Assembly (NCBI RefSeq): GCF_012524075.1
Contig: NZ_JAAZUI010000006.1
Location: forward strand, 1-64,000
Direction of reading: 5' to 3'
Source: Lutibacter sp. B1
GTDB taxonomy: Bacteria > Bacteroidota > Bacteroidia > Flavobacteriales > Flavobacteriaceae
DNA: 64,000 bases
The translations under genes and the position numbers were made by a program. Within the stretch, counting starts at the first letter, position 1; each line of letters opens with the position of its first letter. Positions 29,389 through 49,322 of this stretch are shown here, one piece after another. The notes beneath the pieces are model-generated. The model ran no database searches, had not been told where the DNA came from, and saw only the letters and a program-made list of their open reading frames with translations.

Positions 29389-29473
29389 GGAGAAATGGCA
29401 GAGTGGTCGAATGCGGCGGTCTTGAAAACCGTTGAGGGTCACACCTCCGGGGGTTCGAATCCCTCTTTCTCCG
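29389..29473 (+). tRNA. tRNA-Ser (UGA anticodon)
   Basis: An 85-base class II tRNA. The acceptor GGAGAAA (29389-29395) pairs with TTTCTCC (29466-29472), with G as discriminator. The anticodon TGA is at 29423-29425 in a CTTGAAA loop. A long variable arm follows, then a T-arm with GGTTCGAAT. No CCA is encoded. Its 3' end is the attachment site of the integrative element that follows. Confidence 0.95.
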
Positions 29474-29474
29474 C
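29462..29474 (+). repeat. attL: attL core (13 bp, tRNA-Ser 3' end)
   Basis: CCTCTTTCTCCGC here is identical to 49382-49394. Over the 24 bases from the T-arm to the end the two sites agree at 19 positions, so the element copy also resembles the T-loop. Confidence 0.85.
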
Positions 29475-29575: not shown

Positions 29576-29710
29576 GGTGACCTTTTGGGTGACCTTTTTA
29601 AAACCTTTTTTAGGTCACTTATTTGTTAATAACTGTTTATAAATCAATTAGTTAAACGCAAAATAAAACCTAATTATTTCGTAAATTAATGTATAATTTT
29701 AAAGGTCACC
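29576..29710. promoter_or_regulatory. Left integrase arm-type sites
   Basis: Two direct GGTGACCT octamers at 29576-29583 and 29588-29595 (12-base period). Inverted copies lie at 29612-29618 (AGGTCAC) and 29703-29710 (AGGTCACC), the last ending 3 bases before the integrase ATG. The same pair with the same period recurs at the right end. The promoter-proximal copy suggests integrase autoregulation. Confidence 0.7.
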
Positions 29711-29713: not shown

Positions 29714-30964
29714 ATGAACAAAACATTTGGATTATTATTCTACTTGAAGAAAAGTAAGGTAGATGCACAGGGCAAATGCCCTATTTATCTTCGTATTACC
29801 ATAGATGGTAAACGTACAGAAATCAGTACAAAACGCAGTATTGAAGTTAATAAATGGAACAGTCAAGGCAATAAAGCAATTGGAAGAACTGAAGACATAA
29901 GAGAGCTTAACGCTTATTTAGATTCCCTTACTACAAAAGTATATCAAAGTCAAAGAGACCTAATTCAAGACAATAAAGAGGTCACTACAGAAACCCTAAA
30001 GAATAAGTTTTTAGGTATTGAAGAAAAAGAGCGTACACTCATAACCATTTTTGAAAACCATAATACACAAGTAAAAAAGTTAGTAGGTAGAGAATTTTCA
30101 GCAGGTACTTTAGAGCGCTACAAAACCGTATGCAAGCATCTTAAAGAATTTATGCAGCATCAGTACAAAGTAAGCGATATAAGTATTAAGCGAGTAAACC
30201 ACCAATTTATAACAGACTTTGAGTTTTACTTAAAAACCGTTAGAAACTGCGGACACAACAGCACCATTAAATACATAAAGAACTTCAAAAAAATAGTGCG
30301 TATTGCTCTGGCTAATGGTTGGATAGCAAAAGACCCATTTTTAAATTACAAAGTACGTTTAAAAGAAGTCGAGCGTCAATTCCTTTCAGAAGAAGAAATA
30401 CAAACAATGCTCGAAAAAGAATTACACACCAAACGAGTAGAGCAAGTAAGAGACATTTTCATTTTCTGTTGCTTTACTGGTTTAGCCTATAGCGACGTTA
30501 AGAAGCTCTCAAAAGATAATTTGGTATTTGGTATTGATGGCGATAAATGGATTAAAACAAAGCGTACTAAAACCGATACACGCAGTAATATTCCACTACT
30601 TCCAACAGCTTTAGAGATTATAAAGAAATACGAAAACCATCCAGAGGCAGTAACAAAAGGTGTTTTACTTCCTGTATTAAGCAATCAAAAGTCCAATGCC
30701 TATTTAAAAGAGATAGCAGACTTGTGTGGTATTAATAAAAACTTAACCACACATTTAGCTCGTCATACCTTTGCAACTACGGTAACATTGTCTAATGGTG
30801 TTCCAATGGAATCAGTTAGTAAAATGTTAGGTCATAAATCACTTAAAACAACCCAACACTATGCTAAAATATTGGATAGAAAGGTGAGTGATGATATGGC
30901 TATTTTAAAGCAAAAGTTCGCTAATAAAAGTAATACAGAAGCATCCAAGCGATTAGCTAATTAG
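29714..30964 (+). CDS. int: Tyrosine recombinase/integrase of the Bacteroidota IntDOT-like group
   Basis: A 416-aa integrase. Residues 1-95 are the arm-DNA-binding domain (GLLFYLKKSK, GKCPIYLRITIDGKR), about 105-205 a SAM-like core-binding domain, and about 220-390 the catalytic domain. Catalytic residues seen are the beta-hairpin Lys region (KTKRTKT, 281-287), H347 and R350 (HLARHT), H374 (LGHKS) and nucleophile Y383 (HYAKI). The first catalytic arginine is replaced: TGLAYSD has A258 where most family members have Arg. IntDOT of CTnDOT also lacks this residue, so the enzyme can still be active. It sits 240 bp from attL and presumably cuts the 13-bp core. A terminator follows. Confidence 0.95.
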   Translation: MNKTFGLLFYLKKSKVDAQGKCPIYLRITIDGKRTEISTKRSIEVNKWNSQGNKAIGRTEDIRELNAYLDSLTTKVYQSQRDLIQDNKEVTTETLKNKFLGIEEKERTLITIFENHNTQVKKLVGREFSAGTLERYKTVCKHLKEFMQHQYKVSDISIKRVNHQFITDFEFYLKTVRNCGHNSTIKYIKNFKKIVRIALANGWIAKDPFLNYKVRLKEVERQFLSEEEIQTMLEKELHTKRVEQVRDIFIFCCFTGLAYSDVKKLSKDNLVFGIDGDKWIKTKRTKTDTRSNIPLLPTALEIIKKYENHPEAVTKGVLLPVLSNQKSNAYLKEIADLCGINKNLTTHLARHTFATTVTLSNGVPMESVSKMLGHKSLKTTQHYAKILDRKVSDDMAILKQKFANKSNTEASKRLAN

Positions 30965-31045: not shown

Positions 31046-31161
31046 CTGTTAAAATATAGTGCATAAATGTTAATAAGTTTGTTTTAACTAAAGCACAAAA
31101 TGTAGTAAATTAACACAATATAAATTAGGCGTTTATGCCTTTTAATACGTTTTATTATAAA

Positions 31162-31425
31162 ATGACATTTGAAGTAATTACAAAGGATGATTTAAAGACT
31201 CTTAAACAGGAAATCATCACGGAACTGAAGACAATTTTAGGGAGCCAAACGGAGCAAAAAAAGTGGTTAAAATCAGCAGACGTAAGAGAGATGCTTAACA
31301 TCTCACCAGGTACGCTACAAAATTTACGTGTTAACGGTACATTACCCTTTACCAAAATGGGTAAAACAATGTACTATGAATATGAGGACGTAATCAAAAT
31401 TTTAACCCAAAACAAAAGTGCCTAA
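31162..31425 (+). CDS. Excisionase-like helix-turn-helix protein
   Basis: An 87-aa protein with a short N-terminal helix and a MerR/Xis-type winged HTH at about 36-80 (WLKSADVREMLNISPGTLQNLRVNGTLPFTKMG then YYEYEDVIKIL). The frame opens at 31135, but the ATG at 31162 before TFEVITKDDL fits the usual start of this group. In Bacteroidota elements such proteins follow the integrase and act as excisionase or repressor. Its TAA overlaps the next ATG by one base, so it is translationally coupled to the polymerase-like gene. Confidence 0.8.
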   Translation: MTFEVITKDDLKTLKQEIITELKTILGSQTEQKKWLKSADVREMLNISPGTLQNLRVNGTLPFTKMGKTMYYEYEDVIKILTQNKSA

Positions 31426-32924
31426 TGAGAATATACATACCGGAAAACTTGGATATATTCGAGTTAACGCACAATAACCCACCAAGTTTTAAGCCCTATA
31501 AATTAGATAAGCTATGTTATATCTTGCATTTAATAAATGCTATTCCATTGATGGATAAGGATATTCAAAGTGAAGATTTTGTGCCTATCAACGCAAAAAA
31601 ATTGCAGGATAAAATTCAGAATTACAAAAAGTACCTCAACTATTTAGAACACGATTTGCAAATTATTGAATCTGACAATCACTATGTAGTTGGTGAAAAA
31701 TCAAAAGGGTTTCGATTTGTTGAGGAATTTAGAACACCTGTAAAGTCTATGCAGGTTGAAGATTTTACCTTTAGAAACAAATTAAAAGCACATAAAAATC
31801 GTAAAGTCGAATCGGTTAAACATCTTGACTTTTTAACAAAGTGGTTTAATGATAAACTGCAAATTGATTATGATTATATAAATGACTTTTTAGTTGAAGA
31901 GCATAACCTAAAAATGAAAGATAAAGCATTTTGGGAATATGATAGAGTCCGTAAAAAATATAAGCATCCAACAAATCAAATGATACACGCTCAAATGAGT
32001 GCGCAGAGATTAAAATGGCAAGATTATAATTTGATGCTGGATGATAACGTGTATCGCTTTCATACCAATTTAACCAATATGCCAAGTAGGATTAGAAATG
32101 CTGTAACCTACGATGGCCAAAAATTAATTTCACTAGATATTAAAAATAGCCAACCCTATTTGAGTACTATTTTGTTGAGTCGAGACTTTTGGATTGTGCA
32201 AAAATTTGAGCCAAATAAAAACAACTCTTTATCAATTGCTTTTGATGAACCGCAGAGTCACTATTTTTCTTCTTTTAAACAAATAAATAAGGTTTTCAAT
32301 GAAATAGAGAGTGATAAATTAAATATTTCACAAATAAACATTCATAACAATGATTCTTACATTATGTTAGGAGAAATCCCCCAATCCCTTATAGACAATG
32401 AGTTTCAGCATTATATTGATTTAGTAGTATCGGGTAAGCTATATGAGTTTTTAGCGAATGCCTTCAAACAGGAATTGGGTATTGAATTAAAAGACCGTAA
32501 AGAAGTTAAGGCAGCAGTATTTCAAGTGTTGTTTACATCTAATCAATTTAAGGGGCAAGCAGAAGCAGCACCAAAACGTTTATTTGAGCAAAAGTTTAAA
32601 GAGGTGTATGATTTATTTGCTAAAATTAAGAGTAAAGACAAATCACTACTTCCAAGATTATTACAGAGTATAGAAAGTCATTTAATGATTAACGTCATAG
32701 CAAAGCGTATTTCAGAAGAATATCCAGAAGCACCAATATATACCATTCACGATAGTATTTCTACAACCGAAGAATATGTAGATGTTGTTGAGCAGATTAT
32801 GATGGAAGAATTAACCAAAGCAATAGGTCACCCACCTACAATTAAACAAGAAGTGTGGTGCATAAGTAATATGGTTAAGCATCTTGAAAAGCTAAAACAA
32901 AAAGCATTTGCTGTAGCTTCTTAA
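31425..32924 (+). CDS. Family-A polymerase-like (Pol I/T7 RNAP palm) protein of the element
   Basis: A 499-aa protein. Residues 1-190 are a Lys-rich helical region with no motif I can name. From 210 on the signatures of family-A polymerases appear in order: the template motif YRFHTNLTNMPSRIR (210-224; compare RLSS..PNLQNIP..R in Pol I), motif A with D238 (LDIKNSQPYL), motif B/O-helix with R358, K362, F366 and F370 spaced R-x3-K-x3-F-x3-F, and motif C H442-D443-S444 (YTIHDSIST), where HDS is the T7-RNAP form. There is no 3'-5' exonuclease domain and the protein is shorter than Pol I. It follows the excisionase-like gene by overlap. I infer a replicative, primer-making or transcriptase role for the element; DNA versus RNA synthesis cannot be decided. 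The motif match is by eye. Confidence 0.7.
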   Translation: MRIYIPENLDIFELTHNNPPSFKPYKLDKLCYILHLINAIPLMDKDIQSEDFVPINAKKLQDKIQNYKKYLNYLEHDLQIIESDNHYVVGEKSKGFRFVEEFRTPVKSMQVEDFTFRNKLKAHKNRKVESVKHLDFLTKWFNDKLQIDYDYINDFLVEEHNLKMKDKAFWEYDRVRKKYKHPTNQMIHAQMSAQRLKWQDYNLMLDDNVYRFHTNLTNMPSRIRNAVTYDGQKLISLDIKNSQPYLSTILLSRDFWIVQKFEPNKNNSLSIAFDEPQSHYFSSFKQINKVFNEIESDKLNISQINIHNNDSYIMLGEIPQSLIDNEFQHYIDLVVSGKLYEFLANAFKQELGIELKDRKEVKAAVFQVLFTSNQFKGQAEAAPKRLFEQKFKEVYDLFAKIKSKDKSLLPRLLQSIESHLMINVIAKRISEEYPEAPIYTIHDSISTTEEYVDVVEQIMMEELTKAIGHPPTIKQEVWCISNMVKHLEKLKQKAFAVAS

Positions 32925-32980: not shown

Positions 32981-33059
32981 AAATTGTATAAAAATATATC
33001 GCATTGCATTATATTAATATCAAGTAAATACAATATATTTAGTGTTTCAATTTTCCCTT

Positions 33060-33248
33060 ATGAATCGCATTAAAGAAGTTTTAGAAGAAAAAGGCATAAA
33101 ACAAGTCTGGTTAGCTGAAAAACTAGGCAAAAGTTTTAATACGGTAAATGCTTATGTACAGAACCGTACACAGCCAAGTCTGGAAGTGCTGTATGAGATA
33201 GCAGAAATTTTAAATGTAAAGGTGGGTGACCTTTTAATAGAAAATTAA
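33060..33248 (+). CDS. XRE-family HTH regulator, first gene of the defence operon
   Basis: A 62-aa single-domain Cro/C1-type HTH protein (IKQVWLAEKLGKSFNTVNAYVQ, then PSLEVLYEIAEILNVKVGDLLIEN). The ATG at 33060 is preferred over a GTG at 33042. The 10-bp palindrome ATATTAATAT (33011-33020) just upstream may be its operator. It lies 12 bases before the helicase gene. It resembles the control (C) proteins that delay restriction genes, so a timing role during establishment of the element is plausible. Confidence 0.8.
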   Translation: MNRIKEVLEEKGIKQVWLAEKLGKSFNTVNAYVQNRTQPSLEVLYEIAEILNVKVGDLLIEN

Positions 33249-33260: not shown

Positions 33261-36200
33261 ATGTCAAATATAGACCAAACAGACTTAACGTTTTTTACTA
33301 ATGAAGAAGGTCATAGTTTATTAAGTAGATTCAAATCAACTTTACGTGATACACAGTTATTTGATGTGTTAGTTGGTTATTTCAGGTTAAGTGGTTTTCA
33401 TAGATTATATGATTCCCTTGAACCATTAGAGAAAATTAGAATACTGGTAGGACTAAATGTAGATAAAGACTCTTACGATATTATTTCACATCACCAAGAA
33501 ATGGCGATGTTGGATTTAGAATCACATAAGAGAACAAAGAAAGTATATCAAAAAAATCTACTCGAAGAAATTGAAGATACTGAAGAACCTGAAAACAAAC
33601 TACAAGAGGGTATTGAAAAATTCATAGCGTTTTTAAACGCAGATTGTTCAGATCCCGAAATAGATAAAGCTTATCACGGTAATGGTAAGAAATTAGAAAT
33701 TCGAGCTTATCCATCTAAAAACATTCACGCTAAAGTGTATATCGGAAAGTTTAAACCAGATGATAGAGACTACGGATTTGTTATTACAGGTTCAAGTAAT
33801 TTCTCTGAATCAGGTTTAATTGCAAATCGTGAATTTAATGTAGAGTTAAGAACAAAACGAGATGTGTTATTTGCTGAAGACCAATTCAATAAACTATGGG
33901 CTGAATCTGTTGATATTTCAGAAGATTTTATAGATACTATTGAAAATAAAACGTGGTTAAGTGAAAATATCACACCTTATGAATTATACCTGAAATTAAT
34001 TTACGAATATCTTGAAGAAGATATAAATCTAGAAGATGAGTTCGACCCATTTCTACCAGATGGGTTTATGAAACTAAAATACCAAAGTCAAGCAGCCATT
34101 CAAGCGAAAAAAATATTAGATAGATACAATGGTGTGTTTTTAGCTGATGTTGTAGGTCTTGGTAAAACATTTATTACAGCTTTATTATTACAACAACTAT
34201 TAGGTAGAACATTAGTTATCTGTCCACCTGTATTAAAAGAATATTGGAAAGACTCTCTTTTTGATTTTGGTATTAGAAGTTTTGAGGTTGAATCATTAGG
34301 AAAGCTAACTCATATTTTAAAAAAGGGAACAGAACGATACGATTATATTGTGGTAGATGAAGCCCATAGGTTTAGAAACGAAGGTACACAAGCTTATGCA
34401 GACTTATTAGAAATTTGTAATAACAAAAAAGTGATTCTTGTTACTGCAACACCTCTCAACAATACCATTAACGATATTTTTGCGCAACTTAAATTATTCC
34501 AATCACCAAAAAACTCAACTATTCCTGGAGTAGTAAATCTTGAAAAATACTTTGCTGGTTTACGAACTAGATTAAATAAAGTTGATAAAGCAGACCCAGA
34601 GTACAAACATCTTATAAAGGAAATATCTGATGATATTCGTAACAATATATTACGCTATGTAATGGTAAGGCGTACACGTAATGATGTTATGACCTACTTT
34701 AAAAATGACATGCAAAAACAAGGCTTGGTATTCCCAATCCTTAAAGATCCAAGCAAAATTGTTTATCAATACGAAGGTAATTTAGAAGCCATTTTTAAAT
34801 CTACCATTCAACAGTTATTAGAGTTTACTTATGCCCGTTATACGCCTTTATTATTTTACAAGGGGAATAAGCAATTAACGGAATTTGAAAAGCAACAACA
34901 ACGTAACGTTGGTGGTTTTATGAAAGGCATTCTGGTTAAGCGTTTAGAGAGTAGTTTTTTTGCTTTCCGAATGAGTATTAACCGTTTTATTAAGTCCTAT
35001 GAGAATTTTATCGATATGTACAAATCAGGCACTATCTACATTAGTAAAAAAGTAGATGTGTATGATTTATTGGAAAATGATGATATTGATAAATTAGAAG
35101 AATTAGTAAATGAAGATAAGGCTCATAAATACAAATCAGAAGATTTTACACAGAATTATTCGGACTTACTTCAAAAAGACCTCGATATTCTAAAAGGTAT
35201 AAAAGAGTTATGGTCATCAGTTAATGAGGACCCAAAACTAGAAAAGTTTATACAAGACTTAAAAACAGATAATACACTTAAAAAAAGTAAACTTGTCATC
35301 TTTACGGAATCCAAAGAAACAGGAGATTACTTATATGAAGCCTTATTGCAAGAATTTCCTGAAAAAGTAATGTTCTTTTCTAGTAAAGGCGGTAGACATA
35401 CTAACGATACCTTACTATCTAATCACAATGTGTCAAGAGATATTATCCAATGTAATTTCGACCCTAACCGAAAAAAGAAAGACCAAGTTAATGATATTCA
35501 ATTTTTAATAACTACAGATGTTTTAGCAGAAGGTATAAACTTACATCGTTCAAATGTATTGGTAAATTACGATTTACCTTGGAACCCAACACGTGTATTA
35601 CAACGTGCAGGTCGTGTAAATCGTTTAGGTAGTGCATTTGACTTTGTATATATCTACAACTTTTTCCCAACTACACATTCCGATGCGCATTTAGGACTAG
35701 AAGTAAATATCACGAATAAAATTCAAATGTTTCACGATATTTTAGGTGAAGATGCTAAATATTTAAGTGATGGTGAAGAGTTTGGTAGTCAAGAGTTATT
35801 CAACACCTTGAATAATAAAAAGGCTTATTCAGGAGAAGATGAGGTTGGTGATTCCGAATTAAAATATTTAGAAATTATTAGAAACATCAGAGATAACGAA
35901 GCAGACTTATTCGAGCGTATTAAAAAGCTACCAAAAAAGGCTCGTAGTGGTTTTAATAATAATGAAGTTGAATTACAGACAATGCTAACTTTTTTCCGTA
36001 TTGGCAAACTCAAAAAGTTCTATCAGTTTCAAAGTGGTAAATCCAATGAGGTGACTTTCTTTGATGCTGTTCAAGAATTAGAATGTACACCAAAAACGCC
36101 AAGAGTTAAAGTCCCTGAAAACTTCTTTACAATGTTGCAAACCAACAGAGCAAAATTTACGCTCGATACCACATCAAAAGAAGAAACAGGTGGTAATAAA

Positions 36201-36506
36201 GGACGTTCTAATGCTAAATACATTGAAGACCGCATCATAAAAGATAAGCTATTTAAAAATTTTAAAGGCTTTACGGAAACTGATGAAGAATTTATTGCGG
36301 CAGTAAAGGCAACCCTTAAAGAAGGTAAAATGGCAAAGAAAACGGCTCAAATTGTAAAAAAAGAATTGGAAAAAGTGATAGAGCCTTTACAAGTATTGCA
36401 AGTATTACGCAAGTATGGTCGTATTCAGTTGGATATTACCAACAAAAACAATAAAAAATTTCAGAAAAGAGAAGTCATTCTTTCAGGATATATTACCAAT
36501 AAGTAA
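33261..36506 (+). CDS. PLD-nuclease/SNF2-type helicase fusion (defence)
   Basis: A 1081-aa protein. Residues about 25-230 are a phospholipase-D-like domain with the HxK motif H156/K158 and GSSN at 177-180, the catalytic pattern of HKD nucleases. A superfamily 2 SNF2-type helicase follows: Walker A VVGLGKT at 297-303, DEAH at 366-369, TATPLNNT at 395-402 and, in the second RecA domain, VLQRAGRVNRLG. A Lys-rich helical C-terminus of about 250 residues follows. In restriction-type systems such proteins translocate on DNA and may cleave through the PLD site. It lies 2 bases before the methylase gene. The pairing is reminiscent of DISARM (SNF2, PLD, methylase) but without drmA or drmB, so I do not assign it to DISARM. 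Confidence 0.88.
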   Translation: MSNIDQTDLTFFTNEEGHSLLSRFKSTLRDTQLFDVLVGYFRLSGFHRLYDSLEPLEKIRILVGLNVDKDSYDIISHHQEMAMLDLESHKRTKKVYQKNLLEEIEDTEEPENKLQEGIEKFIAFLNADCSDPEIDKAYHGNGKKLEIRAYPSKNIHAKVYIGKFKPDDRDYGFVITGSSNFSESGLIANREFNVELRTKRDVLFAEDQFNKLWAESVDISEDFIDTIENKTWLSENITPYELYLKLIYEYLEEDINLEDEFDPFLPDGFMKLKYQSQAAIQAKKILDRYNGVFLADVVGLGKTFITALLLQQLLGRTLVICPPVLKEYWKDSLFDFGIRSFEVESLGKLTHILKKGTERYDYIVVDEAHRFRNEGTQAYADLLEICNNKKVILVTATPLNNTINDIFAQLKLFQSPKNSTIPGVVNLEKYFAGLRTRLNKVDKADPEYKHLIKEISDDIRNNILRYVMVRRTRNDVMTYFKNDMQKQGLVFPILKDPSKIVYQYEGNLEAIFKSTIQQLLEFTYARYTPLLFYKGNKQLTEFEKQQQRNVGGFMKGILVKRLESSFFAFRMSINRFIKSYENFIDMYKSGTIYISKKVDVYDLLENDDIDKLEELVNEDKAHKYKSEDFTQNYSDLLQKDLDILKGIKELWSSVNEDPKLEKFIQDLKTDNTLKKSKLVIFTESKETGDYLYEALLQEFPEKVMFFSSKGGRHTNDTLLSNHNVSRDIIQCNFDPNRKKKDQVNDIQFLITTDVLAEGINLHRSNVLVNYDLPWNPTRVLQRAGRVNRLGSAFDFVYIYNFFPTTHSDAHLGLEVNITNKIQMFHDILGEDAKYLSDGEEFGSQELFNTLNNKKAYSGEDEVGDSELKYLEIIRNIRDNEADLFERIKKLPKKARSGFNNNEVELQTMLTFFRIGKLKKFYQFQSGKSNEVTFFDAVQELECTPKTPRVKVPENFFTMLQTNRAKFTLDTTSKEETGGNKGRSNAKYIEDRIIKDKLFKNFKGFTETDEEFIAAVKATLKEGKMAKKTAQIVKKELEKVIEPLQVLQVLRKYGRIQLDITNKNNKKFQKREVILSGYITNK

Positions 36507-36508
36507 TT

Positions 36509-39500
36509 ATGGATAAAAATTCAGCTATTAACCTAATTGATAAAACGTTTAATAATGCGTTTGATGAAGCACAGTTTACAAACTTCATACAAAACCTATT
36601 AAACGACTTTGAAATAAAACCGAATAAATATAGTGGCAATACCATTTGGGAAGACCAACGCGACCACGTAAGCTACTACAAACGCATTGGTAAATACATA
36701 GACCCAGAAGGCGAAGCTTTAGATGTCTTGATTGTTCAAGTAAAAAATGTTTCTAAACTAGAAAGAGCAAGAACAGCATTACGAAACTTTGTGATTAAAC
36801 ATCTTAACAATTTTGAGAAAGACTATGCTTTAGTAGCGTTTTACTCTAAAGAAGATGATGGGTTCGACTGGCGTTTTTCTTTTATAAAAATGGAGCATCA
36901 ATCCTATTTAGATGAAGAAAAGCAAAAAGTAAAAATGCGTAAGGAGTTTACACCTGCAAAACGTTATTCCTTTCTAGTTGGTAAATACGAGAAATCGCAT
37001 ACCGCTAAAACACAATTATTACCGCTTTTACAAAACATTGCGAATAATCCAACCATTTCAGAGTTAGAAAAAGCGTTTAGTATAGAGCGTGTAACCGATG
37101 AGTTTTTTGAACAGTACAAAAGCTTGTACATTAAAGTTTATGAGTATTTTGAAAAACAAGATTTATCTATTTTTCAAGACAGCCAATTAGATGCTTCAGG
37201 CTTTACCAAAAAACTATTAGGTCAAATCGTATTCTTATACTTTTTGCAGAAAAAAGGTTGGTTGGGTGTGCCTAAAAATGAAAGATGGGGTGCTGGTAAA
37301 AGACATTTTCTGCAACAACTTTTTGATGAGTCTTTAGAAAAAAATAAAAACTTCTTTAAAGACTATCTACAATACTTGTTTTATGAAGCATTGGCAAAGG
37401 AACGTGATAACGATAATTCGTTTTACCCACGTTTCAACTGTCGTATTCCATTTTTAAATGGAGGGCTTTTTGAAGCACAATACGATTGGAAAAACGCCAA
37501 CATTTCTATTCCAACCGATTTATTCCGTAATGACGAGAAAAACAAATCTGGAGACATAGGTACAGGTATTCTCGATGTATTTGACCGTTACAATTTTACC
37601 ATTAAAGAAGACGAGCCTCTTGATAAAGAAGTAGCAGTTGACCCAGAAATGCTAGGGAAAGTCTTCGAAAATATGTTGGAGATTAAAGAACGCAAAAGTA
37701 AAGGAGCCTTCTATACACCTCGTGAAATTGTACACTATATGTGTCAAGAAAGTTTAATACATTATTTAGATAATGCTTTAAATGATGACAATAAAACAGT
37801 TGTACCCAAAGAAGATATAGAGCAATACATACGCGAAGGGCATTTAGCATTAGAAAACGATGTACGTGTGGCAGAACGTGGCGAAACCAAAACCTATAAG
37901 TTTTTATTACCAGAAACTGTACGTAATAATGCCGATGTTATTGATAAGAAACTAACCGAAATACGTATTTGTGACCCTGCTATCGGTTCTGGAGCATTTC
38001 CTGTTGGTTTGTTACACGAGTTGGTAACGGCACAATTAATATTAAAACCACATTTAAGTTACAATTACCTAAATAATAAATTAAAGGAATTTGATTTTCA
38101 CGAACGAGAAAGCGTTAGCGAAAGCCGTTATGTCTACCGCTTAAAAAAACACATCATACAAGAAAGCATTTACGGAGTAGATATAGACCGCTCTGCTATA
38201 GATATTGCACGTTTACGTTTATGGCTGTCTTTGGTAGTAGATGAAGACGATTTAGAACCTATAGAAACCTTGCCAAACCTCGATTATAAAATTGTGTGTG
38301 GCAACTCTTTAATTGGTATGCCAGATGGTACAATGCGAGATTTAGAGGTTGAAAAAGAGTTAGAAACTTTAAAAGAAGAGTTTTATACGGTTACTAATGA
38401 GCAACGTAAAAAAACATTACGCAACAAGATTAACACAAAAATACGAGAGCTACTAGATACAGCCGAAACCTTTGCTGGATATAACATTGACTTTGACTTT
38501 AAACTCTTCTTTTCTGAAGTATGGAAGGAAAAAGGTGGTTTTGATGTGGTGATTGGAAATCCGCCTTATGTCAATGTGGAGAAGATTGATAAAAACATAA
38601 AGCAAATATCTAAAACTTTTAGAACAGCACATATGAAATATGATTTATATGTTTTATTTTATGAAAAGGGAATAGATATTTTAAAAGAGAAAGGAGTAAT
38701 AAGTTTTATAACATCAAACAAGTTTTTGTCGCAAGGCTATGGTTTGAAATTAAGAGAGGAATTTTTAAAGCATTCAATAAAAGAAATAATCAATTTCAAT
38801 TATGATATTTTTAGTACAGCGACTGTAAGAACTGCCATATGCCAAATTATCAAGATAAAACCTCACAAGGATGATATGATCAACATTATTGATGTTCATA
38901 GTATTGGTGATTCACAAAAATTTGAAAACTTAATGTATGAACATCTCTTACAAAGGATTTTTACAGAGACTGAAAATTTTAACTTTAGGATAAATCTAAA
39001 CAAAAGCAAAATAAATGTACTTGAAAGATTAAAAGATAATACTCTTCAACTTGAAGAAATTTTCTCTGTTAATTATGGATTGAGACCAGTGCCTTTAGAT
39101 AAAACAAAAGGGAAAGATTATTTTATTAAAAACGAATATCAGAAAGGATTGAGTAAATATTTTGAGGGTAAGGATTTAGGGTATTGGTCAATTAAAGAAC
39201 ATAAATATATAAACTATCTTCCTGATGAAATGTACAATCCGATGTTTAAGGGCTTATTCCTTAATGAAAATTTAGTGGGTTTATGTACCTTAAGTGATAT
39301 TACAAAACTAAGATTTTGTTACACTAAAAATGATTATTTCACTAATCATTCAAATGCTTTATTAACATTTTGGTGGCAGCTAGAAAACGAAAATTATACT
39401 ACAATTAAAAGAAATATTACTTCTAAAAGAATTAACAATTCTAAAAATTTTCAGTATAAATATGTCCAAGCAATCTTAAATTCAGATGTAATAAAATTTT

Positions 39501-39916
39501 ATTTTAATGAGCTAATGTATGATGGTACACACTTTTATCCTAATCATATGAAAGCTTTACCAATAAGACAATTAGAGTCAAAATATCAAGAAGTTATCTC
39601 TTCAATTTCAGAGTACAATTATTATTTAGAATTTTCAGAATTTAAAGATTTATATGATTTTTTCTCTTTGCTGTCAAACTCAATCATTTTTGAAATTTAT
39701 TTAGACTACGAATTTCAAACTACCGATAAATCCATTCTAAAACACCTTCCAGACCTCAAACCTATCAATGATAGTATGAGTGAAGAAGAAAAATTAGGTA
39801 TTATACAAAGCGAGTACGAGCGGTTGTACCACCCAGACCATCCTGTACGCTTTGCAATAGAAACCCTAGATAGTATAGAAGAGGTGCGTATAATTAGAGA
39901 GGCTTTAAAATCGTAA
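36509..39916 (+). CDS. Eco57I-type (type IIG-like) N6-adenine methylase with target-recognition domain
   Basis: A 1135-aa protein. The N-terminal 130 residues hold a beta-rich block with D72...QVK (77-79) that could be a PD-(D/E)XK-like nuclease with Gln in place of the second acid, which is uncertain. Residues about 170-390 are helical. The methylase core runs from about 400: GAFYTPREIV, SAM motif I DPAIGSGAF near 489, and catalytic NPPY near 684. From about 750 a TaqI/Eco57I-type specificity domain follows. It modifies adenine at a specific site and so marks self DNA for the partner helicase. It is 2 bases after the helicase and 3 bases before the McrB-like gene, in one operon. Confidence 0.88.
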   Translation: MDKNSAINLIDKTFNNAFDEAQFTNFIQNLLNDFEIKPNKYSGNTIWEDQRDHVSYYKRIGKYIDPEGEALDVLIVQVKNVSKLERARTALRNFVIKHLNNFEKDYALVAFYSKEDDGFDWRFSFIKMEHQSYLDEEKQKVKMRKEFTPAKRYSFLVGKYEKSHTAKTQLLPLLQNIANNPTISELEKAFSIERVTDEFFEQYKSLYIKVYEYFEKQDLSIFQDSQLDASGFTKKLLGQIVFLYFLQKKGWLGVPKNERWGAGKRHFLQQLFDESLEKNKNFFKDYLQYLFYEALAKERDNDNSFYPRFNCRIPFLNGGLFEAQYDWKNANISIPTDLFRNDEKNKSGDIGTGILDVFDRYNFTIKEDEPLDKEVAVDPEMLGKVFENMLEIKERKSKGAFYTPREIVHYMCQESLIHYLDNALNDDNKTVVPKEDIEQYIREGHLALENDVRVAERGETKTYKFLLPETVRNNADVIDKKLTEIRICDPAIGSGAFPVGLLHELVTAQLILKPHLSYNYLNNKLKEFDFHERESVSESRYVYRLKKHIIQESIYGVDIDRSAIDIARLRLWLSLVVDEDDLEPIETLPNLDYKIVCGNSLIGMPDGTMRDLEVEKELETLKEEFYTVTNEQRKKTLRNKINTKIRELLDTAETFAGYNIDFDFKLFFSEVWKEKGGFDVVIGNPPYVNVEKIDKNIKQISKTFRTAHMKYDLYVLFYEKGIDILKEKGVISFITSNKFLSQGYGLKLREEFLKHSIKEIINFNYDIFSTATVRTAICQIIKIKPHKDDMINIIDVHSIGDSQKFENLMYEHLLQRIFTETENFNFRINLNKSKINVLERLKDNTLQLEEIFSVNYGLRPVPLDKTKGKDYFIKNEYQKGLSKYFEGKDLGYWSIKEHKYINYLPDEMYNPMFKGLFLNENLVGLCTLSDITKLRFCYTKNDYFTNHSNALLTFWWQLENENYTTIKRNITSKRINNSKNFQYKYVQAILNSDVIKFYFNELMYDGTHFYPNHMKALPIRQLESKYQEVISSISEYNYYLEFSEFKDLYDFFSLLSNSIIFEIYLDYEFQTTDKSILKHLPDLKPINDSMSEEEKLGIIQSEYERLYHPDHPVRFAIETLDSIEEVRIIREALKS

Positions 39917-39919: not shown

Positions 39920-41899
39920 ATGAAATCTAAAATCACCTATTACGATTGGATACCTTATTTTAAAGCTATAGCTATTAAAATGTTTGAGATTAGTAAAGAC
40001 AAGAGTAACCGTGACTCATTGTTACTCAATCTTGCTAATGAACTATTTGAGGAGGGCACAGCAATATTGAATTTTTCAATAACAGATCCGTTTTCAATTA
40101 TTTATTCTATAGCTCAAAAAAACACAAAAAATCAAAGAAAATATATTTTTGAAAGCATTAAAGCGGTTTGTGGTTTAGAAGAAAATTTACCAACCGATTT
40201 TACTTTTCCAACGCCTACTCCTAATACAAAAAGTCTGTTTTTTTTTAATGGGCACTATGTAGATGGCGAAGGGATAGCTATTGGAAATGATTGTTTGTGG
40301 AATTTATTTCACCAAGTGTATAATGGGGAAGAAATAAATAACGATGATTTTTTAAAGGTATTAGCGCTTAAAAATGTTGGAGTAACAAAGCTAACACAAG
40401 CAATGTTTTTAATAAATCCAAACGAGTATATGCCCTTTGATACTCAAATGAATAAGCTTCCTGTTGATTCATTAGATAATTTAAAATTAATATCCTTACA
40501 AATTGAAGAAGATGGCGTATTGCCTTATTATGATGTGTTAAGCATATTAAAAAGTAACTTTCCAGGATGTTATTACTACGAAATTAATTTACTCAACTAC
40601 CTACTTAATACAACCACAGGAGAGCAGTTAAGGGTTTCGAATACCTATTGTCAAGTAAGCAGTAATGCTCAAGGTCAAAACGAAGGCGATTATTTTGATG
40701 ATTTTGTAGACAAAAATGGTGTTTATACTGGAAGTGCGTTTTTAAATGAACATACAAAATATCCTTTACAAGATTATAAGCCAGGTGACGTGGTTTTGGT
40801 AAGAAGAGGCACTAAACGACTAGGGGGTATTGGTTTAATAGTAAATAATGAGTACTTACCCAATGGCTATGATGACGATTTAATGATTAAAATTATATGG
40901 TTAGTTAAAGACAACCGTAAAATTCAATCTACAGCGTTAGGACAATGGGATGGTTTTAGTCATGCAACAGCTAATACTGTTGATAGGTTTAAAGAATGTT
41001 ACCCCGAAACTTTCAAAATATTAGATTACACAAGAAATAAGCAAAAAACTATGGTAAATCATTCAGCAGTAAAGTTTAAGAATTTAATTCTTCAAGGACC
41101 GCCAGGTACAGGAAAAACAAGATTAGCCAAACAAATAGCAGAATGGTTAACTGATGAAACGTCAGATAAAGAAAAATCGATTCTTGAAGCAATCGAAAAC
41201 AAGATGTTTAGTAAAGAACCAGAAGTTGAAGAAAACCCTTGTGTAGAGGTTATTCAATTTCATCCATCATACACTTATGATGATTTTGTTAGAGGTGTTA
41301 AAGTAAATGTTGTTGATGAAAAAATATCTTATGATGTTGAAAATAAAATCCTTGGTCAAATGGCTTTCGAAGCAGCTAAACCAGAAAATCAGGATAAAGC
41401 TTTTGTGCTTATTATAGACGAAATCAATAGGGCAAACCTAAACAGTGTGTTAGGTGAGTTAATTTATGCTTTAGAATATAGAGGTAAAATGGTAAACAGT
41501 ATGTACAAAACAGAACAGGGTTATGGTATAACCATTCCTCATAATTTGTATGTAATTGGTACTATGAATACAGCCGACAGAAGTGTTAGCCATTTAGATT
41601 ATGCAATACGTAGAAGATTTACCTTTATACCTGTGCCAGTAAATGATGAGGTGATAACTAATGTGGAGTCTAAAAAAGTTTTCAATGTTATTAGAAATAT
41701 TGTAAAAAATAATATTTCTCCTGAATTTAATGTAGATGATATTCAAGTAGGACATAGTTATTTTTTAGTTGAAGGGAAAGACCTGTATTACAAAACAAAA
41801 TATGAAGTTATACCATTATTAAATGAATATATTAACGATGGGATTCTGTTACCTTCTGCAGAAGATGAAATAAAGGAGTTATTGTCAAATAATTTTTAA
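39920..41899 (+). CDS. McrB-like AAA+ GTPase with EVE-like N-terminal domain
   Basis: A 659-aa protein. Residues 1 to about 270 are an unassigned region. About 285-345 (PGDVVLVRRGTKRLGGIGLIV ... IIWLV ... ALGQWDGF) looks like an EVE/PUA-fold modified-base reader. The AAA+ module starts near 393: Walker A GPPGTGKT, FHPSYTYDDFVRG, Walker B LIIDEINRAN near 500, the McrB signature GTMNTADRS near 548 and RRRF. McrB proteins form hexamers that bind modified DNA through the N-domain and power the McrC nuclease. Its stop overlaps the McrC-like ATG by one base. This is a type IV restriction module inside an operon that also carries a methylase. Confidence 0.88.
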   Translation: MKSKITYYDWIPYFKAIAIKMFEISKDKSNRDSLLLNLANELFEEGTAILNFSITDPFSIIYSIAQKNTKNQRKYIFESIKAVCGLEENLPTDFTFPTPTPNTKSLFFFNGHYVDGEGIAIGNDCLWNLFHQVYNGEEINNDDFLKVLALKNVGVTKLTQAMFLINPNEYMPFDTQMNKLPVDSLDNLKLISLQIEEDGVLPYYDVLSILKSNFPGCYYYEINLLNYLLNTTTGEQLRVSNTYCQVSSNAQGQNEGDYFDDFVDKNGVYTGSAFLNEHTKYPLQDYKPGDVVLVRRGTKRLGGIGLIVNNEYLPNGYDDDLMIKIIWLVKDNRKIQSTALGQWDGFSHATANTVDRFKECYPETFKILDYTRNKQKTMVNHSAVKFKNLILQGPPGTGKTRLAKQIAEWLTDETSDKEKSILEAIENKMFSKEPEVEENPCVEVIQFHPSYTYDDFVRGVKVNVVDEKISYDVENKILGQMAFEAAKPENQDKAFVLIIDEINRANLNSVLGELIYALEYRGKMVNSMYKTEQGYGITIPHNLYVIGTMNTADRSVSHLDYAIRRRFTFIPVPVNDEVITNVESKKVFNVIRNIVKNNISPEFNVDDIQVGHSYFLVEGKDLYYKTKYEVIPLLNEYINDGILLPSAEDEIKELLSNNF

Positions 41900-43167
41900 T
41901 GAATGCTAAAAAAATAAATATTAAAGAGCATTCGTATTCCTACGACTTAAATGAAGAGGAATTAATTGACTTATTAAAAAAACCAAATCAATTAATAGAA
42001 GAAATTAATCTTGAAAAAGGGGGTTTTAAAACAGGATATTTTATTGGTATTTCTAGGTTAGGTTCAACTCAAAATATTCTAAATGTAGCACCTAAATTAG
42101 ACACAGCAACAACTAAAATCAATTACCTGTCCATGTTATCAAAAGGGATGCAACATCCTGAAATGACTAGTTTTGGTAAAGATTTGTTTTTTGTGGATCT
42201 GGATGCTAAACCTATAAAAGTTAAACAAGATCAAGATTTAATTACACCGTTAATTATTGTAAGCTTTTTACAGCTGCTTTCTATTATAGTAAAAAAAGGA
42301 TTGAGGAAGAGTTATTATAAAGTCGAACAAAATATTTACGGAAATGTAAGAGGTAAAATATTGGTGTCTAAAACCATTAAACAAAACCTGTTTAGAATTA
42401 AGAATCTATATACCTTTTGTGCATATGAAGAATTTGGTGTTGACAGCCCTGAAAACCGAATTTTAAAAAAAGCATTATTGTTTTCAATTAAGTATTTAAA
42501 GTCATTCAACACCCTAGAAAATAAGTTTGAACCATTAATTAATTACATTTCACCAGCATTTAAAACAGTTAATTCAAGTATATCAATATCTGAAATTAAG
42601 CACTTTAAAAACGATAATTTTTTTCCGGAATACAATAGAGGTTTAGAATTAGCTAAAATGATTATAAAGAGGTTTGGTTATAATATAAATTCAATCTCTA
42701 ACAATCAAGACGTAAATGTCTATCCATATTGGATAGATATGCCTAAACTATTTGAGTTTTATGTATTAGGTATATTAAAAGAAGAATTTGGTCGAAAAGA
42801 TATAGTTTTTCAATTCAGTGCAAATTATGGAGAGTTAGATTATCTACGAATCACAGAAGGTAAAGAACTAGTAATTGATGCAAAATACAAGAATCTATAT
42901 GTGAATAATAATTATGAAATTGATGATATTAGACAATTAAGTGGTTATGCAAGAGATAAAAAGACATTATCTAAAACCAATATAAAATCGGAGTTCTGGA
43001 AGTCAACTTTATTAAATTGTTTAATAGTTTATCCTGATCAAACGAGTGGTATTCTAGAAAGTTTTGAAAGCAAACTTTTTCTCAATCCAATAAGTCAGTT
43101 TGAAAATTTCTATAAAGTTGGTGTTAAAATACCAACAAAAGATATAATTCGAAATGAGCCATTATGA
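41899..43167 (+). CDS. McrC-like nuclease subunit
   Basis: A 422-aa partner of the McrB-like protein. The N-terminal half has the beta-rich McrC region (GYFIGISRLGS, NILNVAPKLD) followed by helices (NIYGNVRGKILVSKTI). The C-terminal PD-(D/E)XK nuclease is intact: acidic residues near 313 (GELDYL), then VIDAK near 325-329, followed by RQLSGYARDK with the downstream Gln. It activates and cuts once McrB is loaded on modified DNA. It is translationally coupled to the McrB-like gene. Confidence 0.86.
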   Translation: MNAKKINIKEHSYSYDLNEEELIDLLKKPNQLIEEINLEKGGFKTGYFIGISRLGSTQNILNVAPKLDTATTKINYLSMLSKGMQHPEMTSFGKDLFFVDLDAKPIKVKQDQDLITPLIIVSFLQLLSIIVKKGLRKSYYKVEQNIYGNVRGKILVSKTIKQNLFRIKNLYTFCAYEEFGVDSPENRILKKALLFSIKYLKSFNTLENKFEPLINYISPAFKTVNSSISISEIKHFKNDNFFPEYNRGLELAKMIIKRFGYNINSISNNQDVNVYPYWIDMPKLFEFYVLGILKEEFGRKDIVFQFSANYGELDYLRITEGKELVIDAKYKNLYVNNNYEIDDIRQLSGYARDKKTLSKTNIKSEFWKSTLLNCLIVYPDQTSGILESFESKLFLNPISQFENFYKVGVKIPTKDIIRNEPL

Positions 43168-43234: not shown

Positions 43235-45055
43235 ATGAAAATACAAAACATAACCATTAACAAATACAAAGCTTTTCAGCGTTCAGAGATACTTGCTATT
43301 GGTAGTAAAAATGTATTTATCTATGGTGAAAATGGCAGTGGTAAAAGTTCTGTTTATTACGCGCTTAAAGATTTCTTTCAATCGAGTGTTGAGAATATCA
43401 ATATGGCAAATTTGCGCAATTTATACTTAACCGATGGGCTAACAGATTGCGCTATTGAAGTGGAATTTGACAATAATACAACTAATTCATTATCTGATTC
43501 TGGAAGAGATACAAATATTCCAAGCATAATAGATGCAAATCGTTTAAAAAGTTTCGTGACTTACAAACATCTTTTAGGTGTTCATAACGTAAAGTTGGAT
43601 AATGAGCTAAATATTTTTGATTTAGTAATAAAAGGGGTATTAAAACATTATAAATCACAAACAGTTACAGGGGGTGTAGAGCTAGGTAAATTGTGGAGTG
43701 ATTTGTTAGCAGAAAGTAAAATTCCTTATGGGAGTGGTAAATATTATCACGCAACTAAAAAACGTAAAGCTGTTGAAGTAAAAGCTGTTGCTTTCAATAA
43801 TGCATTAGACAGATTGTTTTTTACAGGAGGTAGTGATTACTTGGGTCCTGTGGTAAATAAAATTTTAAATACTTTAATTCCTGGTTTAGAAATAAATTTT
43901 TTAAGACATCGAATAAATGTTGATCAGAAAGGTGAGTTAAGTAAACCTAAAATAGCATTACTAATTTCTTCTAACGGAACTTCTTTAGATACTCATTATC
44001 CTCATTTTTCATTAAATGAAGCAAAACTATCAGCTATTGCTATTAGTATATTTTTAGGGGCAATAGTACGTCAATCAAGTTTTTCACAAGACATTAAAAT
44101 ATTGTTTTTAGATGATATTCTTATTGGTTTAGATAATGAACACCGTTTAAAATTGATAAAACTTTTAAAAGAACCAGAGTTTCAAGACTTTCAAATTTTC
44201 ATCACCACTTATGACAGGCACTGGTATGAAGTAGCAAAGCTTCAATTAACCGATTGGAAGTTTCTGGAGTTTTACAAGGGGGCTAATGGTCCGGCTATAA
44301 TTGATAATGAAAAAGATGATTTAAAAAGAGCAAAAGATTATTTTGATGCTTATGATTTTCCTGCTGCTGGAAACTATTTAAGAAAGGTTTTAGAAAAAAC
44401 GTTAAGAGACAAACTTCCTAAAACCTATACGCATAGTGAAGAAAAAAACGGTTCATTAAAGCCCTTAAAATTGGACACTATGATTGATAGGTTAAGATTA
44501 TATTATTCAGATATTGAAGTAGAAGTTCCAATTCAATTAATTGATAGTATAAAAATTTATAAATCAATTCTATTTAATCCAATGTCGCACGATGATATTA
44601 AAAGCCCCATTTATAAAAATGATATAGAAGATGGATTTAAAGTTATTGATGAATTACAAAATCTACAGTTACCAATAAAGGATATTGTACTTGAAAAAAA
44701 TAAAACATTCCAAATAGACTTACCCGATATTTCTTATACAGCAGAAGTTGTTGTTGTCGAAAACGTTTATAAAGTGGATAATAATAGAACAATTTCCTTT
44801 ACATCTACGAAGTTCTCATTTAACCTGTGGACTAGAGAAACGATTGATTTTGCCAAAAGTACAGGTGCACCTATCGAGTCGTATAAGCCTGGAGATAGAT
44901 TGGACAATATTTTAAAAGGACCATATGATTTAGAATGGATATCTAAAGCCATAAATCCAACTTATAAAGAAAAAGGATTAGCAGAGATCAATGTTGAAGA
45001 TTTAAAAAACGCTATGACTTGTGATGGTAAGACACTAACACAATGGTTGGTATAA
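43235..45055 (+). CDS. SMC/RecF-like AAA ATPase with unassigned C-terminal domain
   Basis: A 606-aa protein. The ABC-type head has Walker A GENGSGKSS at 31-39, then ASLNEAKLSAIAI-like signature sequence and Walker B LFLDDILIGLD near 290-300, with an intervening part too short for a long coiled coil. Residues about 360-475 are helical (YLRKVLEKTLRDKLP ... NPMSHDD), a fold I cannot name. The last 110 residues are beta-rich and end TLTQWLV. It lies 67 bases after the McrC-like gene on the same strand and may be a fifth member of the defence operon or an independent system. Overcoming lysogenization defect-type and Abi ATPases are possible relatives, unproven. Confidence 0.72.
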   Translation: MKIQNITINKYKAFQRSEILAIGSKNVFIYGENGSGKSSVYYALKDFFQSSVENINMANLRNLYLTDGLTDCAIEVEFDNNTTNSLSDSGRDTNIPSIIDANRLKSFVTYKHLLGVHNVKLDNELNIFDLVIKGVLKHYKSQTVTGGVELGKLWSDLLAESKIPYGSGKYYHATKKRKAVEVKAVAFNNALDRLFFTGGSDYLGPVVNKILNTLIPGLEINFLRHRINVDQKGELSKPKIALLISSNGTSLDTHYPHFSLNEAKLSAIAISIFLGAIVRQSSFSQDIKILFLDDILIGLDNEHRLKLIKLLKEPEFQDFQIFITTYDRHWYEVAKLQLTDWKFLEFYKGANGPAIIDNEKDDLKRAKDYFDAYDFPAAGNYLRKVLEKTLRDKLPKTYTHSEEKNGSLKPLKLDTMIDRLRLYYSDIEVEVPIQLIDSIKIYKSILFNPMSHDDIKSPIYKNDIEDGFKVIDELQNLQLPIKDIVLEKNKTFQIDLPDISYTAEVVVVENVYKVDNNRTISFTSTKFSFNLWTRETIDFAKSTGAPIESYKPGDRLDNILKGPYDLEWISKAINPTYKEKGLAEINVEDLKNAMTCDGKTLTQWLV

Positions 45056-45252: not shown

Positions 45253-45582
45253 ATGCTTATATACAAACTATTAAAAGGAAGAATAAAAGAAGTTTTGAAT
45301 AGAAGAATAGACATATCTAAAGTATTCCCTAAATATGCATTTTGGGATATGGATAGTAGTAAACTATCTCTTAAAAGAGATAAGGATATTATTATTCCAA
45401 GAGCTTTATATGCTACTACCAAAGAAACTTTTCCTAAAGATATTAGTGTATTAGAAGCATATTATTCTAAAAAAGAAATTGTAGATATTTTAAAGCACAC
45501 TAAAGAAAACATTAGTAATCAAGTATGCGAATTGGTAAGTAAACGCTACAATACAAAACCGTTTTACCGCTACGCTGTATAA
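45253..45582 (+). CDS. DUF6922-like antitoxin-position protein
   Basis: A 109-aa protein with the pattern FPKYAFWDMDSSKLSLKRDK-DIIIPRALYAT typical of the Bacteroidota family I recall as DUF6922, which sits upstream of AbiEii-type nucleotidyltransferases. The C-terminal FYRYAV matches the short aromatic tail of that family. It starts shortly after the promoter box and ends 2 bases before the AbiEii gene. By analogy with AbiE it is the probable antitoxin, though it does not resemble AbiEi in length. Confidence 0.65.
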   Translation: MLIYKLLKGRIKEVLNRRIDISKVFPKYAFWDMDSSKLSLKRDKDIIIPRALYATTKETFPKDISVLEAYYSKKEIVDILKHTKENISNQVCELVSKRYNTKPFYRYAV

Positions 45583-45584
45583 CG

Positions 45585-46340
45585 ATGCAAGCGGTTTCTT
45601 CTGCACTTTTAAAAACCATTAAAGAATTACAGGCTTTACCAAGTTTGTCTAAATTTGCTTTGGCAGGTGGTACTAATTTAGCATTACGTTTTAATCATCG
45701 CATTTCTGAAGATATTGACCTATTTGCTACTGAAATAATAGGTATAAAAGGCTTTGAAAACATTGAAGCTGAAGTAAAGGCATTCTATGGCAACAATGTT
45801 ATAAACATAGTATATCCCGTTAAAGAAAACGATCAGTTTGTATTTATACGCTTCTTTATTAAAAAAGGTGATGTCACCATTAAAGTAGATGTTATTCAAA
45901 ATATGAAAGCACTCTACCCTTTTGAAACCATTAAGGCTGTAAGATGTTATAATGTAAAAGATATTGGTTTGTTCAAATTAGTAAGTTGTTCTAACAGACC
46001 TGCCAAAAAAGATATTTACGATTTAGAATACATTACAGAATCTAACAACCTAATTGATTTATATAATATTTTAAAAGAGAAGAAAGCAAAATTCAATAAA
46101 GATACTGATAGGAACATCTTTGATTTAGACGAAGACCCAGACCCAATAGACAATCCGCATTTACTACTACTTTTTGATAAAAGAATGGCAACCAAACAAA
46201 AAATGCGTCATTCACACGATAACATTTTAAATATTGAAGGTAGTAAATCGTGGCGAGAAGCAAGTATGTATTGGAGAATGAAGGTCAGACGCTTATATGC
46301 ATCTATAGGAATTGAATATCCCAAGTTGTACACCATTTAA
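45585..46340 (+). CDS. AbiEii/AbiGii-type nucleotidyltransferase toxin
   Basis: A 251-aa protein of the AbiEii family. The nucleotidyltransferase signature is at the N-terminus: ALAGGTNLALRFNHRISEDIDLF with GG at 28-29 and metal-binding D43 and D45, then a third acidic strand (VTIKVDVIQNM). Family toxins transfer nucleotides, for example to tRNA or other acceptors, and stop growth on phage infection. It follows the DUF6922-like gene by 2 bases. The C-terminal WREASMYWRMKVRRLYASIG is commonly seen in the family. It may act as abortive-infection defence and also stabilise the element. Confidence 0.82.
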   Translation: MQAVSSALLKTIKELQALPSLSKFALAGGTNLALRFNHRISEDIDLFATEIIGIKGFENIEAEVKAFYGNNVINIVYPVKENDQFVFIRFFIKKGDVTIKVDVIQNMKALYPFETIKAVRCYNVKDIGLFKLVSCSNRPAKKDIYDLEYITESNNLIDLYNILKEKKAKFNKDTDRNIFDLDEDPDPIDNPHLLLLFDKRMATKQKMRHSHDNILNIEGSKSWREASMYWRMKVRRLYASIGIEYPKLYTI

Positions 46341-47814: not shown

Positions 47815-47956
47815 AATACTATTTTTTATAGTGAAGTATGAAAATAAAAAAAGGTAGCAAATATAGGTAGCTACCTTGTGCCAATGCTCAATGCTATAAA
47901 GGTCAAGCCCTCTGGGTTTTGAATAAAACTTTTTAATCAAAATTGGTAAACAAGCA

Positions 47957-49302: not shown

Positions 49303-49322
49303 GGTGACCTATTAGGTGACCT
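49303..49322 (+). promoter_or_regulatory. Right integrase arm-type sites
   Basis: GGTGACCT at 49303-49310 and 49315-49322, the same octamer and 12-base period as at 29576-29595, 59 bases inside attR. Confidence 0.7.

Follow-up and report, generated by a model that had tools for sequence, protein, structure and literature searches.

The window analysed here comprises 64,000 nucleotides of Lutibacter sp. B1 (contig NZ_JAAZUI010000006.1, positions 1 to 64,000 of the forward strand) and contains an integrated element that extends from a 13-bp repeat at 29462, at the end of a tRNA-Ser gene, to 49394. Behind the left end of the element, three genes follow one another on the same strand: int, encoding a tyrosine integrase (INT); xis, encoding an excisionase-like HTH_17 protein (XIS); and pol, whose 499-residue product (hereafter POL; the window's own protein, P0001, supplies all residue numbers) is the subject of this study. 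A sequence-only reading of the window had singled out the same short open reading frame (ORF) as an exonuclease-less family-A polymerase palm in a tRNA-integrated island, translationally coupled to the excisionase-like gene. The stop codon of xis and the start codon of pol share one base (TAATG). Judged from sequence comparison and structure prediction together, POL is a real, divergent, exonuclease-less homologue of family-A polymerases, and synthesis of DNA rather than RNA is favoured.

POL carries the motifs of a family-A palm at the residues originally assigned to them: a template (T) motif with R211, H213, T217 and R224, motif A with D238, the O-helix pattern R358-x3-K362-x3-F366-x3-F370 in motif B, and motif C at residues 442-444. 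Their conservation was followed in a census of 178 POL sequences of at least 380 residues (155 distinct, the window's own included), from which 11 shorter ORFs among 162 scan ORFs and 10 of the 36 first loci (own copy, duplicates and fragments) were left out; L131 yielded no ORF. D238, K362, H442 and D443 are jointly kept in 176 of these sequences, and the two exceptions, L040 and L122, are truncated ORFs in which the misses are gaps. Homologues without D238 and D443, named in the earlier reading as evidence that would speak against it, were not found among the 178. S444 is kept in 167 of the 178. In an alignment of 77 sequences (A5; 76 of 78 representatives used, L120 and L127 left out), nine columns are invariant, namely R211, D238, Q243, Y340, K362, Q414, E417, H442 and D443, despite identities to P0001 that run from 92% down to 20% and mostly lie at 20-35%, indicating that the motifs exceed chance. 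In A6, 73 of its 76 segments were computed. By the measure of sequence comparison, pol is under purifying selection as a protein: the ratio of nonsynonymous to synonymous substitution rates (dN/dS) between the window's pol and 12 relatives is 0.06-0.21 in the 11 computable cases, the values being rough in the eight with dS above 1. Degraded pol copies also exist (L008/L026, L016, L020, L040 and L067), as split frames or a C-terminal remnant of 51-55 residues.

Structure prediction, which the sequence-only reading had proposed as a check, gave a confident right-hand model that matches family-A DNA polymerases. The AlphaFold2 model of POL, computed from the 77-sequence alignment, has a mean predicted local distance difference test score (pLDDT) of 87.1 and a predicted template-modelling score (pTM) of 0.84. 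A Foldseek search of the PDB with this model returned 100 matches at E ≤0.001 (best E 3.9e-6), and the 50 of these that are listed are all family-A DNA polymerases, comprising Mycobacterium, Thermus, Bacillus and Aquifex Pol I and the apicoplast polymerase. The top two matches in a fold search of a viral library are proteins of 409 and 403 residues (E 4.5e-24 and 9.7e-18), the second of which is named 'Putative DNA polymerase I'. A palm fold of the family-A polymerase type is thus predicted for POL with confidence. No exonuclease domain is recognised among the POL fold matches, in agreement with the sequence-only reading. The low-confidence insertion that follows motif A is largely missing from the huge-phage members, with gaps in most phage rows.

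The N-terminal 200 residues had been described as devoid of a recognised domain. Modelled separately (pLDDT 93), they have no PDB fold match at E 0.001 (best 0.16), and to that extent the description stands; it is qualified by the top sub-threshold matches, most of which are regulators of the CodY, PadR and MarR kinds, which are winged-helix proteins, and among which there are also entries with 'initiator' and 'Rep-DNA complex' in their titles. The model is consistent with a possible winged helix at residues 1-110 plus linker helices.

Sequence databases place POL less readily. P0001 has no convincing match in Pfam, PHROG, NCBIfam, PADLOC or PDB sequences, its Pfam matches being sub-threshold ones such as Trp_halogenase (E 0.018), and a profile of the 77 members gives 0 matches to PDB chain sequences. 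The DNA_pol_A family PF00476 matches neither P0001 nor, among the 25 of 55 Pfam families listed for the 77 members at E up to 1, any of these members; those 25 families include no polymerase, and no primase family is matched by POL. The genome has one PF00476 gene, at a place other than that of POL. Over the 77 members, 93 PHROG families are matched; the 25 listed include one named 'DNA polymerase I', which a single member matches (E 0.002). Fifteen of the members, P0001 not being one of them, match phrog_4756, a family of unknown function, with E no higher than 1 (best 1.7e-7); a compact phage DNA_pol_A protein also matches it, at E 7e-5. NUMOD4 and HNH_3 each match one A5 member, as do HNH endonuclease PHROGs, and a homing endonuclease perhaps lies in or beside the polymerase gene of one A5 member.

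The connection to DNA polymerases is provided by intermediate proteins. A compact DNA_pol_A protein of 425-430 residues is encoded directly after the POL relative, with 4 bases shared, in five viral records (LR756511, L117, L118, L121 and L123), which represent four distinct pairs because neither protein differs between L121 and L123; the bridging alignment accordingly has five rows, four of them distinct. PF00476 finds the compact protein of L117 (E 1.1e-21), and the compact set as a whole matches the Pol I/T7 gp5 profile with a probability of 97% and the RNA polymerase profile with 0.06%. Against the POL family the same set reaches 86% probability (E 4.8e-6) over 148 columns, corresponding to P0001 residues 329-477, compared with 0.2% for the reversed family. 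The profile search suggested in the sequence-only reading is thereby borne out in part: PF00476 itself finds no match, but DNA_pol_A is reached through intermediate proteins. This bridge and the overlapping viral gene pair together speak for a DNA polymerase rather than an RNA polymerase. The HDS triplet of motif C, which had been read as a sign of a single-subunit RNA polymerase, is a weak one. The compact DNA_pol_A of LR756511 has HDG at this place, so the third residue of motif C is not diagnostic, and at motif A +5 (an ungapped register being assumed) 175 of the 178 POL sequences have Gln, 12 of 12 Pol I sequences have Glu and 6 of 6 T7-like RNA polymerases have Gly. The Glu at this position of Pol I selects the sugar. 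The overlapping pairs of two different family-A palm proteins (L032, L117, L118, L121 and L123) could form a two-subunit polymerase.

POL has a match in 25 of the 299 same-family genomes searched, counting that of the window itself, and in 6 of 50,697 phage records, all of them uncultured phage genomes of 595-735 kb. Pattern-led scans yielded 79 cellular loci, for which 80 of the 103 matches were retained, along with 16 further viral contigs and 68 contigs of huge-phage type; the cellular loci bear the names of Bacteroidota lineages in their titles, except for one titled only 'bacterium'. INT lies near POL in 59 of the 79 cellular loci, some of the others being short contigs, and in 37 both INT and XIS lie upstream on the same strand as POL. 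A same-cluster XIS is found upstream of POL in 39 of the 79, and the 1-nt overlap between the two genes recurs in 19 of these 39, in line with the proposed translational coupling. The XIS counts are strict; a looser count (46 of 79, and 42 of 79 with INT) took in two further small-gene clusters. The first ORF after POL falls into 12 clusters over 23 loci, and the genes behind POL in the relatives encode a type I R protein, N6 and N4 methylases, a Dam-like protein with DpnII, and a TonB receptor with FUR. Across these loci, int, xis and pol make up a core to which exchangeable cargo is attached. In six cellular loci (L068, L075, L079, L080, L082 and L089), POL lies near genes of AAA_24 and DUF3871 clusters, the Pfam names having been obtained for L079 only; INT faces POL in five of these six. 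The huge-phage branch (L132-L199) has its own surroundings, with a familyless gene upstream in 58 of 68 contigs (median 442 residues) and another downstream in 64 of 68 (median 179 residues).

The description of the island as tRNA-integrated holds: an intact tRNA-Ser(TGA) gene stands at its left end, and a second copy of the 13 bp at the gene's 3' end stands at its right end. The motif GGTGACCT occurs seven times in the window, compared with 0.53 expected, five times at the two ends of the element and twice inside genes. Upstream of int, four sites of this type stand at near-fixed distances in 15 of the 22 int-bearing relatives compared (L037-L059), with some in five and none in two, and we infer from count and spacing that they are putative integrase arm sites. 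In 20 elements compared, conserved DNA lies before int and, more weakly, between int and xis. A tRNA-Ser(TGA) gene is present in 21 of the 48 related loci scanned and in 17 of the 19 closest. The left-flank gene is found in 31 of 38 genomes of the genus, with tRNA-Ser(TGA) beside it in 30 of 30 fetched loci. Contig ends cut some of these loci short, and a window-like integrase is present in 10 of the 30, counting that of the window, indicating that the site is variably occupied. The right-flank gene is found in 4 of the 38 and showed no empty site, since no tRNA lies beside it in those four loci. Fourteen island ORFs were scanned for gene content. They match no relaxase or mobilisation family; the likeness to an integrative and mobilizable element (IME) drawn in the sequence-only reading is therefore unsupported, and a relaxase-bearing IME was rejected. 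No structural phage gene is recognised in the island, and no replication gene other than pol among the scanned ORFs.

Table 1 Features of the tRNA-Ser(TGA)-integrated element and of POL in the window.
Feature	Position	Strand	Basis
tRNA-Ser(TGA), integration target, intact at left end	29389..29474	+	ARAGORN
Left attachment core CCTCTTTCTCCGC, equal to the 3' end of the tRNA gene	29462..29474	+	13-bp exact direct repeat
Two GGTGACCT sites, 12 bp apart, putative integrase arm sites	29576..29595	+	count, spacing
Inverted GGTGACCT site directly before int	29703..29710	-	count, relatives
INT, tyrosine integrase with arm-binding, SAM-like and catalytic domains	29714..30964	+	PF17293, PF13102, PF00589
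XIS, excisionase-like HTH_17 protein	31135..31425	+	PF12728
POL, exonuclease-less family-A polymerase homologue, 499 residues, ATG start	31425..32924	+	ORF, alignment, fold, profiles
POL residues 1-110, possible winged-helix DNA-binding domain	31425..31754	+	weak fold matches, best E 0.16
POL residues 211-224, template (T) motif RFHTNLTN...R	32055..32096	+	R211 in 178/178
POL residues 238-244, motif A DIKNSQP	32136..32156	+	D238 in 178/178, Q243 in 175/178
POL residues 259-323, low-confidence insertion	32199..32393	+	pLDDT <50 at 259-261 and 265-323
POL residues 358-371, motif B / O helix RKEVKAAVFQVLFT	32496..32537	+	K362 in 177/178; in-register alignment on Pol I O helix
POL residues 440-444, motif C TIHDS (H442-D443-S444)	32742..32756	+	H442 and D443 in 176/178
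XRE-type regulator, start of cargo	33042..33248	+	PF01381
HKD (PLD) and SNF2 helicase, defence-type cargo	33261..36506	+	family matches
Type IIG restriction-modification / PglX-like methyltransferase, cargo	36509..39916	+	family matches
McrB-like (39920-41899) and McrC-like (41899-43167) proteins, cargo	39920..43167	+	family matches
SMC-like ATPase, cargo	43235..45055	+	PF02463
DUF6922 protein and AbiEii nucleotidyltransferase, cargo	45253..46340	+	family matches
Second HTH_17 (AlpA-like) protein near right end	47479..47940	-	Pfam
Two GGTGACCT sites at right end, same 12-bp spacing	49303..49322	+	count
Right attachment core, second 13-bp copy	49382..49394	+	exact repeat

The cargo of the window's island begins behind pol, with defence genes densely packed across 33261-46340. 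Just inside the right end, a 249-residue gene without Pfam match lies on the minus strand (48126-48875).

On balance, we think it probable that POL is a divergent exonuclease-less family-A DNA polymerase that serves as the replication protein of the tRNA-Ser(TGA)-integrating element. Polymerase activity, use of deoxynucleoside triphosphates (dNTPs), recognition of DNA, an origin, excision and a role in replication are what we infer from the features described above. INT and XIS would excise the element as a circle, a step that follows from known tyrosine-integrase systems. POL, translated from the xis-pol transcript through the stop/start overlap, would bind a site on the circle via its N-terminal winged-helix-like domain and use its Pol I-like palm for strand extension, with D238 and D443 holding metal ions, K362 serving the incoming dNTP, and a host helicase and other host factors assisting. 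Once copied in this way, the element could persist even if the copy in the chromosome were lost, and could be transferred. What had been envisaged as a dedicated replicative or transcriptional polymerase thus survives in its first form, with a polymerase homologue in the core of the element and DNA favoured as the product; the RNA form is improbable.

Several observations weigh against this assignment. The listed Foldseek matches have low TM-scores by query length (0.26-0.38). A direct hhalign comparison of the POL family with 12 Pol I sequences gives a probability of 0.84% (E 0.066), and an integrase control gives 0.96% (E 0.057); with T7 gp5 added to the Pol I profile the value rises to 3.0% (E 0.015), and the comparison with six T7-like RNA polymerases is nominally better, at 10.8% (E 0.003) over 59 columns around motif C. 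Further controls gave 0.16% (phage cluster), 0.14% and 0.24% (reversed family) and 0.17% (Pol I against RNA polymerase). The alignment with Pol I sets R358, K362, F366 and F370 on the O helix and H442-D443 on the HD of motif C, in register. As far as these profiles go, direct comparison of POL with Pol I or RNA polymerases decides nothing. No conserved DNA was found after pol in the 20 elements, and no origin candidate beside pol, where the search for an origin was made. A POL match occurs in just one plasmid record out of 72,556, a Hymenobacter plasmid with its own annotated replication initiation protein; POL is thus not a common stand-alone plasmid replicator, and POL as the sole replicator of that plasmid was dropped on account of this annotation. 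Among nine hand-picked records of huge-phage type, eight have a PolB match and the ninth has a Pol III match together with a compact DNA_pol_A, and POL therefore need not be the main polymerase of huge phages and may be an accessory one.

A bolder form of the replication proposal, which we regard as possible yet clearly less likely, holds that POL is an origin-binding, self-priming initiator-polymerase, in which the winged helix would find the origin and the family-A palm would start and extend DNA without a primase. If this were true, POL would be the family-A counterpart of the piPolB and PrimPol replication proteins and would mark out a large class of Bacteroidota elements; in certain phages with large genomes it would partner a second family-A polymerase encoded by the overlapping next gene.

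With somewhat lower likelihood still, POL could be a primase or origin-specific initiator that makes only short primers, for extension by the host polymerase or, in phages, by the adjoining DNA_pol_A. The winged-helix-like N-terminus, though a weak sign, would suit this role, as would the tandem with a separate DNA polymerase in the five viral records (four distinct pairs) and the position behind int and xis, which resembles that of the primase-replication genes of known satellite islands; the lack of any primase family match to POL argues the other way, and de novo priming is not known to be the main role of any family-A DNA polymerase.

It is unlikely that POL is a repair or defence polymerase, filling gaps left by excision and integration or acting against phage together with the defence cargo. 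Such a role is suggested by the defence genes that POL directly precedes in the window's island and by the restriction-modification cargo behind it in several relatives, but POL stays with int and xis as the cargo changes, metal-handling cargo included, has no PADLOC match, and has relatives in phages themselves.

We hold it to be more improbable again that POL is a small, element-specific, T7-like RNA polymerase driving expression of xis or the cargo. It shares HDS at motif C (167 of 178 POL sequences) and Ser at motif A +4 with five of six T7-like RNA polymerases, to which the nominally better direct alignment also points; against this, the bridging proteins reach DNA_pol_A and not RNA polymerases, all of the listed PDB fold matches are DNA polymerases, motif A +5 holds a bulky Gln in place of the Gly of RNA polymerases, and the viral gene overlaps that of a DNA polymerase. 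That POL is a catalytically dead DNA-binding accessory of excision, as its possible winged helix and its coupling to xis might suggest, can scarcely be maintained given the retention of the catalytic residues in all but the two truncated census sequences and the low dN/dS.

POL adds to family A an unnamed and apparently widespread group that is exonuclease-less and has a possible DNA-binding N-terminus. It is a core gene of Bacteroidota mobile elements with defence and metal-handling cargo, most probably as their replication polymerase, and phages whose genomes are very large have it as well. Should POL prove active, it would explain how such elements are copied when they have no recognised replication gene, would provide a new small polymerase for study, and would make origin recognition and initiation by a family-A enzyme testable.

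The POL group is unnamed in Pfam, NCBIfam and PADLOC and in the accessible text of two polymerase surveys (PMC12926913, PMC7824862). Among publications searched by title or the start of the abstract, a scope in which subscription papers are mostly not included, there is no description of such a family, and the accessible part of PMC12324425 concerns other elements. The 2026 survey of bacterial DNA polymerases names PolA1, PolA2, PolA3 and PolA1-like, and describes a 3'-5' exonuclease domain, active or vestigial, in PolA1-3 (PMC12926913); these groups have the A-family palm in common with POL, and an exonuclease-less mobile-element group is not described in the accessible portion of that survey. 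The survey of jumbo phages distinguishes five polymerase types; its exonuclease-less type belongs to family B, and it names no A-family type besides the T7-like one (PMC7824862). As with the phage relatives of POL, the phages concerned have large genomes, and exonuclease-less polymerases occur in them; the POL group is not described in the text available from that source.

POL resembles family-A DNA polymerases (Pol I, T7 gp5, PF00476 and the compact phage DNA_pol_A) in the order and register of the T motif, the motif A Asp, the O-helix R/K-x3-K and the motif C His-Asp. It differs from Pol I in having no recognised exonuclease and a possible winged helix instead, in motif A (D-x-x-N-S-Q-P compared with D-Y-S-Q-x-E) and motif C (HDS compared with HDE), and in going undetected by PF00476 itself. 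With single-subunit RNA polymerases such as those of T7 and SP6 it shares the HDS of motif C and the Ser at motif A +4; unlike POL, these enzymes have Gly at motif A +5, and they lie beyond the reach of the profile bridge.

The PrimPol-PV1 enzyme is an archaeo-eukaryotic primase with a fold unrelated to that of POL. PrimPol-PV1 elements are nevertheless similar to the POL element in that many are tRNA-integrated and, in the accessible account, some of their replication proteins have a winged helix thought to bind the origin (PMC5862659). The features by which a pipolin-like element is recognised, namely its own polymerase homologue, a recombinase and attachment sites, are all present in the window (int, xis, pol, the 13-bp repeat and the end repeats). 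Like pipolins, as far as their accessible description goes (PMC7385651), the POL element is tRNA-integrated and carries its own DNA polymerase homologue beside recombinases, with variable cargo; unlike the family-B piPolB, POL is family A-like by fold and motifs. By analogy, pipolins and PrimPol-PV1 elements are the nearest concepts to the POL element.

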